A stretch of DNA of 23,643 nucleotides from a virus: positions 1-23,643 of IMG/VR virus record IMGVR_UViG_3300036770_000363; one strand, given 5' to 3'. Below the pieces are notes generated by a model that had not been told where the DNA came from, made no database searches, and saw only the letters and a program-made list of their open reading frames with translations. The stretch's first letter is position 1, and the number at the start of each line of letters is the position of its first letter. The translations under genes were made by a program, and so were the position numbers. Below, piece after piece: positions 8,928 through 12,871 of the stretch.

Positions 8928-9107
8928 ATGACGACACAGGAAGCAATCGACCACTACGGCAGCGTCAAGAAGCTGGCCGATGCGCTCGGCATCTGGCCAC
9001 AGGTGATCTACACATGGGGCGAAACGCCACCGATGGCGCGCCAGTACGAGCTGGAGGTCAAGACAGGCGGCACATTGAGAGCAGATCGGCAGGTGGTCAA
9101 TGGCTGA
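8928..9107 (+). CDS. cro: Cro-like helix-turn-helix repressor
   Basis: A 59-residue protein beginning MTTQEAIDHYGSVKKLADAL. It matches the short Cro-family layout: EAIDHYGSVKKLADALGIW as helices 1-2 of the HTH, PQVIYTWGETPP as recognition helix and turn, then RQYELEVKTGGTL. Cro binds operators in the divergent promoter region and shuts down early or repressor promoters. It is the first rightward gene, immediately beside overlapping divergent promoters. GAGAGG precedes the ATG. Its stop overlaps the primase start by 8 nt. No CI-type repressor is found across the divergent region, where one would be expected; the window may lack it or the phage may be lytic. Confidence 0.85.
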   Translation: MTTQEAIDHYGSVKKLADALGIWPQVIYTWGETPPMARQYELEVKTGGTLRADRQVVNG

Positions 9108-11154
9108 TCTCTCTAAAGTCCTGGGTGGCCCCTGGTCGCCACCACCCGAGAAGAGGGTGGCACCACCAGAAGAGCAGCTTCGTGATGCGATGCTGAAGCT
9201 GGGGCTTAACCCGCCAGAAGAGCTGCACTTCGACGGCAAGATTCACAGGTTCAAGTCCGGCACAAAAGGCTCGCCTGGCCACGGCGACAAGCCTGGCTGG
9301 TACCTGGTCTTCGGTGATGGCGTGCCGGCCGGCCGATTCGGCTGCTGGAGGGCTGGTGTCGAGACGCCCTGGAAGGCAGATGTCGGGCGCAGACTTTCAG
9401 ATGCCGAGGAGATGTTTTACGCCAGGCGAGTGGCCGAGGCCAAGGTGCTGCGTGATGCCGAGCTGGAGCGCCAGCACCAGGTGGCAGCCGACACGGTCGA
9501 GAAAATCTGGCTCAGTGGTGTGGCAGCACACCCTGATCATCCATACCTCAAGCGCAAGGGCATTCAGACGCACGGCGTGCGCACCACTGGAGATGGGCGC
9601 TTGATGGTTCCCCTGTACGACCAGGACGGAACTCTCAGCACGCTGCAGTACATCGATGAGGAAGGCGGCAAGCTGTACCACCCAGGCGGCAAGTCTGGTG
9701 GTAAGTTTTGGATGCTTGGCACGATGGATGAGCCAGGCGTGCTCTACATTGCTGAAGGATTCGCAACCGCGGCGACCATCCACGAGACCACCGGCCGGCC
9801 CTGCGCGGTTGCCTACAGCGCCAGCAATTTGGTGCCAGTGACTGGTAGTCTGCGTGAGATGTTCGGCCAGCAGCAGACCATCGTCATCGTGGCAGACCAC
9901 GACAAAAGCGGCACCGGCCAGAAGTATGCCGACCAGGCCAGTGCCAAGTACGGCGCGCGCGTGGTGATGCCTCCAATCGAGGGCATGGATGCCAATGATT
10001 ATGCGCAGGCCGGGCACGATCTGACAAGCCTGCTGGTGCAGCAGACAGGCACGGCTGTGGTCGAGAAGTTGCGCCTGGTCTTCGGTGACCAGCTCGGCAC
10101 CGACTACGAGGCACCAGACGAGCTGGTCGAAGGCCTGATGACCATCGGCAGCTCGGTGGTGGTCTACGGCGACAGCAACTCCGGCAAGACGTTCTGGGCG
10201 CTGTCAGTGGCCACGGCCATTGCCACCGGCACCGACTGCTACGGCCGCAAGACCGACCCAGGCCTGGTGGTCTATCTGGCCAGCGAGGCACCGGCCAGCA
10301 TCCGGTCTCGCATGCAGGCCATCAAGCAGTTCTACGGCTGCAGCCTGGAGAACCTGGCGATGGTGCCGGTCCCGATGAACTTCTACTCCGGCGACCAGGA
10401 CGCCAATGACGTGATTGAGCTGGTCAAGGCGGTCGAACAGATCAAGGGCAAGCCAGTGCGCCTGATCATTGGCGACACGCTGGCCAGGATGAGCGCAGGA
10501 GCCAATGAGAACAGCGGCGAGGACATGGGTCCGGTCATGGCCAGATTCGACCAGGTGGCCACGGCCACCGGCGCGGCCATGATGATCATCCACCATAACG
10601 GCAAGGACGCGGCCAGAGGCGCTCGCGGCTGGTCCGGCATCCGTGCCCACATCGACACCGAGATCGAGGTCACAGAGAAAGATGGCACCAGGTCTGTGAC
10701 GGTCACCAAGCAGCGCGAGCTGCCCAGCAAGGGCGAGACGATCTACTTCCGGCTGGAGGTGATCGAGATGGGCACCACCAAGTTCGGCGCGCCAGCGACC
10801 ACCTGCGTGGCCGTGCCAGACACTGATGCGTCCAACACGAAACCACACAAAAAACCCACCAAGCACGATGAGAACGTGCGCACCATCGAGCGCGCATGGT
10901 GGCATGCTGGAGCTGAGGAACGTGAGGGTTTACCCTATGTCAGCAGGTCTGCGCTGCGTGAGCTGCTGGTCAACGATGGCATGTCGGAGCGCACGGCCAA
11001 GAACAAAACCGAGGCCAGCCGACAGGATGGAATCATCGCGCAACTGCTCAACGCAGGCACGATTGAGACGCTGGAGCACGGCTGGATTGTGAGCAATGAG
11101 GTGCAGGCCAGCGCCATGTTGATGAGGAAAAGTGGCCAGGAAAAGCGCCCCTAA
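9100..11154 (+). CDS. Bifunctional Toprim primase / RepA-type helicase
   Basis: A 684-residue replication protein. The N-terminal part (about 40-100) resembles the substrate-binding front of phage primases (GWYLVFGDGVPAGRFGCW). The Toprim domain carries LYIAEGFATAAT with Glu219 and VIVADHDKSGTG with Asp266/Asp268. The C-terminal motor is a RepA/AAA_25 hexameric-helicase type: Walker A GDSNSGKT (357-364), Walker B LIIGDTL with Asp459, and MMIIHHNGKDAARGARGWSG. A winged-helix-like tail (about 590-675) may bind the origin. This layout resembles phage primase-helicases that initiate replication, with a repeat array directly downstream. It overlaps cro by 8 nt and lacks a CHC2 zinc finger. Confidence 0.88.
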   Translation: MADLSKVLGGPWSPPPEKRVAPPEEQLRDAMLKLGLNPPEELHFDGKIHRFKSGTKGSPGHGDKPGWYLVFGDGVPAGRFGCWRAGVETPWKADVGRRLSDAEEMFYARRVAEAKVLRDAELERQHQVAADTVEKIWLSGVAAHPDHPYLKRKGIQTHGVRTTGDGRLMVPLYDQDGTLSTLQYIDEEGGKLYHPGGKSGGKFWMLGTMDEPGVLYIAEGFATAATIHETTGRPCAVAYSASNLVPVTGSLREMFGQQQTIVIVADHDKSGTGQKYADQASAKYGARVVMPPIEGMDANDYAQAGHDLTSLLVQQTGTAVVEKLRLVFGDQLGTDYEAPDELVEGLMTIGSSVVVYGDSNSGKTFWALSVATAIATGTDCYGRKTDPGLVVYLASEAPASIRSRMQAIKQFYGCSLENLAMVPVPMNFYSGDQDANDVIELVKAVEQIKGKPVRLIIGDTLARMSAGANENSGEDMGPVMARFDQVATATGAAMMIIHHNGKDAARGARGWSGIRAHIDTEIEVTEKDGTRSVTVTKQRELPSKGETIYFRLEVIEMGTTKFGAPATTCVAVPDTDASNTKPHKKPTKHDENVRTIERAWWHAGAEEREGLPYVSRSALRELLVNDGMSERTAKNKTEASRQDGIIAQLLNAGTIETLEHGWIVSNEVQASAMLMRKSGQEKRP

Positions 11155-11258
11155 ATGCCCCTGAGTGCCCCTGGGGGCGTTAGGGGCGATAGGGGCAAAA
11201 GCCCGGAAAAACGCCCCGCCCCGCCCCTAAACCCTATAGGGTAGGGGCAGGTAGGGGC
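11147..11258. repeat. Iteron-like GCCCCT/AGGGGC array
   Basis: The hexamer GCCCCT occurs at 11147, 11157 and 11167 (exact 10-bp period), then inverted (AGGGGC) at 11182 and 11191, again as GCCCCT at 11223, and inverted at 11243 and 11253 (10-bp period). Between them are the runs CGCCCCGCCCCGCCCC (11212-11227) and the palindrome CCCTATAGGG (11232-11241). TTAGGGGCG (11180-11188) pairs with CGCCCCTAA (11222-11230). The block begins at the 3' end of the primase-helicase gene and is otherwise non-coding. Helical phasing suggests binding of a protein to one DNA face. Confidence 0.75.
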
Positions 11259-11285
11259 ACCGGGATGCGGGGAAACAGAGAAAAG

Positions 11286-11294
11286 TTATCCACA
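11286..11294 (+). promoter_or_regulatory. DnaA box
   Basis: TTATCCACA is the exact high-affinity bacterial DnaA box. It sits 28 bp after the repeat array and 22 bp before the next start codon, in the intergenic region following the primase-helicase. A single 9-mer can occur by chance, but its place beside an iteron-like array supports a replication-origin role, an inference. Confidence 0.55.
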
Positions 11295-11315: not shown

Positions 11316-11597
11316 ATGACACAGACGAACGTGAACGAGATGCTGGCCGGACGTGAAGAACGGTATGGCGCATTTGAGAACCACGCCAAGACTAGTCAGG
11401 GTCTCAAGGACGTGATGCAAGAGCGCAGCAACTGGGACTGCCTCAAGCCAGACCAGCGCGAGGCCTTGGAAATGATCCAGCACAAGATCGCGCGCATCCT
11501 GAACGGCGATCCGAACTACGTCGACAACTGGGTCGACATCGCTGGCTACGCCACCCTGGTGGCCAATCGGCTGGAAAAAGAGGAGAATGAGGTATGA
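11316..11597 (+). CDS. DUF6378-like phage protein (93 aa)
   Basis: A 93-residue protein. The stretch ALEMIQHKIARILNGDPNYV followed by DNWVDIAGYATLVANRLE resembles the conserved core of the DUF6378 family of small phage proteins, of unknown function; the front half contains ERYGAFENHAKTSQGLK, also typical. The fold looks all-helical and recalls MazG-like helical bundles, without the full EXXE-type metal motif being clear. It lies right after the presumed origin and before the methyltransferase (ATGA overlap). TGAGGAAG precedes the ATG by about 9 nt. Family naming is from memory. Confidence 0.75.
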   Translation: MTQTNVNEMLAGREERYGAFENHAKTSQGLKDVMQERSNWDCLKPDQREALEMIQHKIARILNGDPNYVDNWVDIAGYATLVANRLEKEENEV

Positions 11598-12871
11598 CCA
11601 CAAAGTCCCACAAAGTAAATCCAGCCGACAAGGTCGAGCAGTGGCCTATCGAAAAGCTGGTGCCCTACGCCAAAAACTCGCGCACGCACTCCGATGACCA
11701 GATCGCACAACTGGCGGCCAGCATCAAAGAGTGGGGCTTCACCTCGGCCATCCTGGTGGACGAGGACGGCGGCATCATTGCCGGTCATGGTCGCGTGATG
11801 GCGGCGCGCAAGCTGGGGCTGGCATCATTGCCGGTCATGGTCGCGGCAGGCTGGAGCGAGTCCCAGAAGCGCGCCTACGTCATTGCGGACAACAAGCTGG
11901 CGCTGAACGCTGGCTGGGACAACGAGTTGCTGGCGCTGGAGTTGGCCGAACTCGATGGCCTGGGCTTTGACGTTGAACTGACCGGCTTTTCCGACGAGGA
12001 AATCAAAGCCCTGATGCCGGTGGAAGTGAACGAGGGTTTGACAGACCCGGACGATGCCCCGGCCGTACAAGAAAACCCGGTCACCGTGCCCGGTGACGTT
12101 TGGGTCATGGGCAAGCACCGGCTGCTGTGCGGCGACTCGACCAGCGTCGATGACTTGGCCAAGCTGACCCAGGGCAGCCTGGTGGACATGTGGCTGACCG
12201 ACCCGCCTTACAACGTGGCCTACGAGGGCGGAACGAAGGAGAAGCTGACCATCAAGAACGACTCGATGGGCGACGATCAGTTCCGGCAGTTCCTGCGCGA
12301 TGCCTACACGGCGGCCGACACGGTCATGAAACCTGGCGCGGTCTTCTACATCTGGCACGCGGACAGCGAGGGCTACAACTTCCGTGGCGCAGCCAAGGAC
12401 GCTGGCTGGACCGTGCGGCAGTGTCTGATCTGGAAGAAGTCCAGCATGGTGCTTGGCCGACAGGACTACCAGTGGAAACACGAGCCGTGCCTGTACGGCT
12501 GGAAAGACGGCGCTGGCCACCTCTGGGCAGCGGACCGAAAGCAGACGACCATCCTGGAGTTCGACAAGCCAGCGCGCAACGGAGAGCATCCGACCATGAA
12601 GCCGGTGGCGCTGTTCGAGTACCAACTGCTGAACAACACGAAGGGCGGCGATATCGTGCTCGACTCGTTCGGCGGCTCTGGAACGACTCTGATCGCTGCC
12701 GAGAAGAACGGCCGCACGGCCATGATCATGGAACTGGACCCACGCTACTGTGACGTCATCGTCAAGCGCTGGCAAGAGTTCACTGGCAAGCAGGCAACAC
12801 ACGCAGAAACTGGAAAACCTTTCGCGGAGGTTAAAAATGGCAACGAAAAAGCAATCACAGAAGCAGCCTGA
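11594..12871 (+). CDS. ParB-domain DNA methyltransferase (N6-A/N4-C)
   Basis: A 425-residue two-domain protein. Residues about 15-110 are a ParB/Srx-like domain (WPIEKLVPYAKNSRTHSDDQ, IIAGHGRVMAARKLGL, KRAYVIADNKLALNAGW). The rest is an amino-methyltransferase: LTDPPYNVAYEG with DPPY at 203-206 and FGGSGTTLIAAE at 359-370. DPPY before the S-adenosylmethionine motif marks the beta class, which methylates adenine N6 or cytosine N4. Such proteins are common in phages and probably protect DNA from host restriction. The target site cannot be read from sequence. A 25-bp repeat lies within the ParB domain. It overlaps the genes on both sides, by 4 and 35 nt. Confidence 0.9.
   Translation: MTTKSHKVNPADKVEQWPIEKLVPYAKNSRTHSDDQIAQLAASIKEWGFTSAILVDEDGGIIAGHGRVMAARKLGLASLPVMVAAGWSESQKRAYVIADNKLALNAGWDNELLALELAELDGLGFDVELTGFSDEEIKALMPVEVNEGLTDPDDAPAVQENPVTVPGDVWVMGKHRLLCGDSTSVDDLAKLTQGSLVDMWLTDPPYNVAYEGGTKEKLTIKNDSMGDDQFRQFLRDAYTAADTVMKPGAVFYIWHADSEGYNFRGAAKDAGWTVRQCLIWKKSSMVLGRQDYQWKHEPCLYGWKDGAGHLWAADRKQTTILEFDKPARNGEHPTMKPVALFEYQLLNNTKGGDIVLDSFGGSGTTLIAAEKNGRTAMIMELDPRYCDVIVKRWQEFTGKQATHAETGKPFAEVKNGNEKAITEAA
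11771..11845 (+). repeat. 25-bp exact direct repeat inside methyltransferase
   Basis: An identical 25-bp stretch (beginning GGCATCATTGCC) occupies 11771-11795 and 11821-11845, separated by 25 bp of unrelated sequence. The first copy is read as GIIAGHGRV (residues 60-68), the second in another frame as LASLPVMVA (76-84). Both peptides fit the ParB-domain pattern at their positions, so the gene is not broken by the repeat. Confidence 0.9.

Follow-up and report, generated by a model that had tools for sequence, protein, structure and literature searches.

Repeat array behind a phage primase-helicase gene: a probable replication origin whose word follows the winged-helix tail of the helicase

A block of repeated GCCCCT words directly downstream of a phage primase-helicase gene is very probably the replication origin of this phage, with the words bound by the tail of the protein encoded upstream. 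An iteron origin beside its initiator had been proposed in the initial annotation, and hundreds of related loci strongly support this arrangement; from sequence, we infer that replication starts at the array, which would be the site of duplex opening, helicase loading and priming. The DNA analysed, here called the window, spans the whole of an IMG/VR virus record (23,643 bp). Among its genes pointing left are those for a helicase, a Cas4-type exonuclease and a Sak4-like annealing protein. The rightward genes encode a P22 Cro-like regulator, the primase-helicase (9100-11154), a DUF6378 protein, a ParB-domain DNA methyltransferase, a Terminase_3 large subunit and a P22-like portal. The array region is flanked by the primase-helicase and DUF6378 genes. 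A change in GC skew near a divergent gene pair at about 8.9 kb was set aside as evidence, because gene orientation alone can account for it.

Eight exact hexamers are present at 11147-11258, GCCCCT at 11147, 11157, 11167 and 11223 and AGGGGC at 11182, 11191, 11243 and 11253. The initial annotation had counted eight and given positions for seven, the eighth being 11223. The first copy overlaps the stop codon of the primase-helicase gene (TAA, 11152-11154). The 5-base core GCCCC/GGGGC occurs in 11 copies, ordered as three forward, three reverse, three forward and two reverse. The left block (11147-11196) is inverted, with GCCCCT at 11147, 11157 and 11167 and GGGGGC/AGGGGC at 11173, 11182 and 11191, and is kept in A1; the linker between the blocks is AAAAGCCCGGAAAAAC (11197-11212), and all main-class relatives except one have CAAAA after the left block. 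Clustering of a short word in multiple copies beside a putative initiator gene is the arrangement of an iteron origin. An artefact of chance or composition in a GC-rich genome is a negligible prospect: the hexamer is common window-wide (15 copies of AGGGGC/GCCCCT for a chance mean of 15.9), yet 8 of the 15 lie inside the array, AGGGGC is the densest hexamer anywhere in the window, and the local density of 8 copies per 120 bp was unmatched by shuffling, with maxima of 4 in 300 window shuffles and 5 in 5000 local shuffles. Together with the conservation of the array across relatives and its coupling to the protein, the shuffles ruled out this explanation. An AT-rich stretch as unwinding element was not evident in the array, which has a GC content of 0.61 as has the window. 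The 10-bp spacing claimed for the repeats is real in the window and in GCCCCT-class relatives (10 bp, n=129; 9 bp, n=44), but is no general rule: GGTAAC arrays mostly have 7 bp, other arrays 8-9 bp, so that the check across relatives did not support helical phasing at exactly 10 bp as a general property.

A first set of 80 primase-helicase relatives was extended by six further viral scans to 269 distinct loci. At least six copies of one hexamer in the 160 bp behind the gene were present in 226 of the 269 loci, versus 9 of 807 control segments taken from those same loci. In a separate scan of bacterial genomes the window protein alone gave no matches, while an alignment query yielded loci, and 46 of 74 carried an array. 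Relatives with the same primase were checked for loss of the repeats, and nearly all close ones retain the array behind the gene. The word is uniform inside each array and differs among relatives. Those at about 75-99% identity mostly have GCCCCT; more distant ones have other words on the same plan, namely CCCCCT (L037), GACCCT (L061), CACCT (L048), GGGAAC (L075) and GGTAAC (L065, L068), and isolated phages have GGGACA (CGphi29), GGTACA (1N2-2), GGTTCA (XX1924) and CTACAAA (CRP-811). Absence of the array was considered for L045, L046, L050 and L054 and rejected, the array being found about 210-380 bp further downstream. Within about 420 bp of the gene no array was found in some relatives, e.g., L085, L227, L269, L273, L316 and L322. 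Arrays displaced downstream from the helicase gene, by 1.0 kb at L151:5516-5623 and by 1.5 kb at L087:5133-5253, show that adjacency to the gene is common, not needed. A second branch of RepA-like helicases, of the Roseobacter-phage type (L412-L490 and L088), has a different C-terminal domain (HFYGKxTATNKRQAY...) and the words ATACCA, GTACCA, TACAAA, TGTAAA, GTCCTA and ATGTGA; exact DnaA boxes were absent in the classes tallied. A full-text literature search of incomplete coverage retrieved no description of this array family.

The inferred initiator is a protein of 684 aa (9100-11154, plus strand) with a Toprim primase region, an RSF1010-RepA-like AAA_25 helicase and a C-terminal winged helix. 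Pfam matches were Toprim_3 (E 2.3e-12) and AAA_25 (E 5.3e-31), and a profile match to PDB 1g8y, the RSF1010 RepA, covered residues 324-504 (E 6.9e-15). The AF2 model had a mean pLDDT of 84. The C-terminal domain, residues 585-684 (10852-11151, plus strand), is the predicted reader of the words. For this tail, an AF2 prediction with 55 sequences gave a winged-helix topology (pLDDT 89.0, pTM 0.79), bearing out the winged-helix-like tail noticed initially; rows L082 and L084 were left out of the structure-prediction alignments. Its structural neighbours were ArsR-type winged helices with VIA-align Z of about 6-7. Foldseek with the tail found merely the common winged-helix resemblance and no match at E <= 0.001, therefore no specific structural family is claimed. 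A Pfam search of the tail gave no significant family; RepA_N matched 2 of 55 tails with a best E of 0.028, which is not significant.

The sequence of one helix in the tail, ERTAKNKT in the window (residues 630-637; 10987-11010, plus strand), tracks the word. ERTAKNKT is paired with GCCCCT, ERTATNKT with CCCCCT, ERTVRNM with GACCCT, SAKVY with GGGAAC, SAKQY with GGTAAC and TAKTY with GGGACA, the last pairing holding also in the bacterial-genome locus L496. Among pairs of loci with a helicase identity of at least 0.75, the word was shared in 826 of 836 with a helix identity of at least 0.9 versus 6 of 905 with less than 0.4. Given helicase similarity, helix similarity predicted the sharing of words (partial Mantel r=0.578, 0 of 300 permutations). 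L302 forms a natural chimera with the window: its helicase is 28% identical to that of the window, its helix is 93% identical, and the word is the same. Single-linkage clustering of the words chained unrelated words and was dropped; a test on a Val/Gln exchange in the helix was used instead. In the clade with this exchange, Gln was accompanied by GGTAAC in 29 of 29 and Val by GGGAAC in 21 of 21 loci, presenting agreement in all 50 called loci; one further Gln locus had too few word copies for a call. In a tree from which the tail was excluded, residue and word each change 10 times, and all nine supported independent switches were concordant (p=0.0039). N635 of the window protein aligns with the Val/Gln position of the GGGAAC and GGTAAC classes.

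Natural exchanges of tail and array were also found. In L289 and L156 the primase and helicase parts of the protein, about 540 residues, are near-identical (about 99%), and the DNA is 94-100% identical over most of the sequence until about 250 bp before the stop codon. Tail and array have about 20-65% identity, and beyond about 349-350 bp after the gene the identity is again 96-100%, the swapped stretch stopping at the next gene. The two loci thus differ only in a cassette of about 400 bp, with RKPRTIENDLS and AGGGGG in one version and SEASAKQYIKPS and GGTAAC in the other. Each version is present in several independent contigs, which makes an assembly artefact unlikely. At L065:3625-3922 two complete arrays stand in tandem, GGTAAC followed by GGGACA; the first matches the tail encoded by this locus, the second a different tail class, and the tandem looks like a fossil or an intermediate of an origin exchange. 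The link between tail and repeats, suggested initially from their neighbourhood, is borne out by the covariation of helix and word and by these swaps, and binding of the tail to the words is strongly implied. From covariation and natural chimeras, the word specificity would be set by the linked initiator, in a statistical, not a biochemical sense. Centromeres also carry iteron-like repeats, and a ParB_N domain was matched weakly (Pfam E 6.5e-6) in the second gene 3' of the array, so a parS-like site for partition or segregation, perhaps tied to this ParB-domain methyltransferase, was considered. We regard it as very improbable: the word tracks the tail of the primase-helicase, the swap between L289 and L156 ends at the next gene, and the phage encodes terminase and portal. 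The gene itself (11594-12871) is a fusion of ParB_N with an N6/N4 DNA methyltransferase and has the inferred origin on one side and the terminase genes on the other.

The perfect DnaA box TTATCCACA reported at 11286 is confirmed (11286-11294, plus strand). It is the only exact copy in the window, and a single exact match is, alone, not significant. Support came from the relatives: exact boxes numbered 198 in 109 kb beside arrays and 37 in 1.48 Mb of other sequence from these loci, which makes them 72-fold enriched. In the GCCCCT class the box lies on the 3' side of the array; the GGTAAC and GGGAAC classes mostly have it doubled and on the 5' side. No exact box was found near the array in several clades (ATACCA, ATGTGA, GTACCA and CTACAA classes), hence DnaA is not universal; the host DnaA box expected of an iteron origin is present, though absent in some clades. 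The boxes bear also on a reading of the array as an operator, through which the tail autoregulates transcription or shuts off downstream genes while replication starts elsewhere. A DNA-reading tail with matching sites could explain the word coupling without replication, and the array is intergenic, just ahead of the DUF6378 gene. Such an operator is unlikely, however, in view of the enriched DnaA boxes, of a predicted word reader that is a helicase-primase, and of the location of the array downstream of its own gene; moreover, the gene behind the array differs among relatives, and neither promoter nor intrinsic terminator was found around the array.

One long imperfect palindrome, absent from the initial annotation, makes up the right half of the array (11202-11264). 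It reads CCCGG...GCCCC x3...CCCTATAGGG...GGGGC x2...CCGGG and includes five word copies. The central palindrome CCCTATAGGG (11232-11241) has the variants ACGTATACGT and ACCTATAGGT. At the foot of the palindrome ATGCGG (11265-11270, plus strand) is conserved in the main class, and GATGCGG or CGATGCGG takes this place in several other word classes. Across the aligned relatives, 98.8% of the cells in the arms were paired; 51 cells were changed on both sides versus 12.7 in shuffled alignments (0 of 500 shuffles as high), these cells being sequences and not independent events. Cells changed on one side only were not observed, and at most one of the 51 two-sided cells is a G-U pair. Such covariation can also be yielded by template-switching repair of palindromes. 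The region folded better than shuffles, with z of -2.7 and -3.5 on the two strands under DNA parameters, and these values together with the covarying stems would fit repeats acting as RNA, i.e., a structured transcript serving as regulatory RNA, primer RNA or antiterminator. The changes are, however, unlike those of typical RNA helices, and the near absence of G-U pairs in the covarying arms favours a DNA palindrome or hairpin over RNA. An Rfam search of the array region gave no family at threshold; neither a known family nor covariation with G-U pairs thus marks the region as a structured RNA. All word copies change together, beyond what pairing requires, and the coupling is to a fold of DNA-binding type. 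An RNA function is quite improbable. In L008, L009, L011, L013, L022, L030, L035, L052 and L053 the right half is of a second type, TACCCCCTTTTAGGAAGGGGTAGGGG...ATCATGATGCAG followed by a T run, without the DnaA box that is present in sister arrays. L035 combines the left half of one type with the right half of the other, which suggests recombination within the origin.

In the origin account that we favour, the C-terminal winged helix of the primase-helicase would bind the repeated GCCCCT words, and the word copies on both strands would gather several copies of the helicase. The DnaA box, where present, would recruit host DnaA to help the opening of the DNA. The palindrome is perhaps extruded or exposed as a hairpin; it may then be the loading site of the helicase, with the Toprim domain priming there. 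The word may drift, or recombination of the tail-plus-array cassette may replace it, and both would lead to separate origin specificities among related phages. Perhaps, at a little under an even chance, the family has a readable system of origin addresses: a winged-helix tail unknown to Pfam, a code of nearly one residue to one base (Val to Gln, GGGAAC to GGTAAC) and cassettes of tail plus origin that pass between phages by recombination as whole units. Pressure from competitors, from satellites or from nucleases directed at the origin may cause the address to shift, a view already proposed for PLE and Odn; the palindrome may act in loading or priming as a DNA hairpin. Sequence alone now suffices to locate a predicted origin in this large family of uncultured phages and prophages. 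Hundreds of protein-word pairs, including single-residue switches and clean domain swaps, present a natural data set for reading the DNA specificity of winged helices. With it, the questions how initiators can evolve another origin specificity and stay viable on the way, and whether competition or attack on the origin drives origin diversity among related phages, become directly testable.

Among known systems, the RSF1010 replicon is similar in its homologous hexameric RepA helicase, matched here by 1g8y, and in its iteron origin; it uses hairpin ssi sites for priming. The helicase class of P4 differs from the RepA/AAA_25 type, and we know of no word switching described for P4. The analogy to P4 alpha drawn in the initial annotation is fair in the layout and fails in the helicase, which here is not a P4-type domain but of the RSF1010 RepA type (AAA_25/RepA). 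Both proteins unite a Toprim-type primase, a helicase and a winged helix, and P4 alpha binds repeats of its origin (PMC4234260). Helicase, primase and iteron reader of RSF1010 are three proteins (PMC4234260), whereas they are one protein here; the word tracks the helicase's own tail instead of a separate RepC iteron binder. In SaPI Rep and SCCmec Cch2, the C-terminal domain of the helicase reads several short iterons that lie immediately 3' of the helicase's own gene (PMC7581432, citing Ubeda et al. 2007). The phage shares with SaPI the origin directly downstream of the helicase gene and the putative C-terminal reader. SaPI Rep and Cch/Cch2 are DUF927- or D5-type helicases with AEP primases (PMC7581432), whereas the phage protein is RSF1010-RepA-like with Toprim; its helicase matched AAA_25 and RSF1010 RepA, not the DUF927 or D5/Primase_Cterm type. 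Unlike SaPI, the array region here has a long covarying palindrome and DnaA boxes. In PLE, a phage satellite of Vibrio cholerae, the DNA-binding domain of RepA covaries with the iterons while the rest is conserved, replicons have been swapped, the match of RepA to its iterons was put to the test in vivo, and a phage nuclease, Odn, attacks the iterons (PMC8263062). The RepA_N protein has its DNA-binding domain at the N-terminus, is not known to be fused to helicase or primase and has three semi-palindromic iterons of about 30 bp (PMC8263062); here the domain is C-terminal and fused, the word classes are many, and cassettes swap among phage genomes. Archaeal plasmids of the pRN1 family encode a multifunctional primase-helicase with a C-terminal winged helix; immediately behind this gene they have a required stem-loop of about 100 nt, conserved in shape and poorly in sequence (PMC4234260). 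They have no iterons, an archaeo-eukaryotic primase and an SF3 helicase (PMC4234260), in contrast to the iterons, Toprim and RepA-like helicase of the phage. Unusual here are how broadly the words switch, how cleanly tail and array form one cassette, and that a single residue goes with a switch of specificity. With an RSF1010-RepA-like helicase, a Toprim primase and a fused putative word reader, the phage system would work like those of SaPI, PLE and pRN1 but belongs to none of them.
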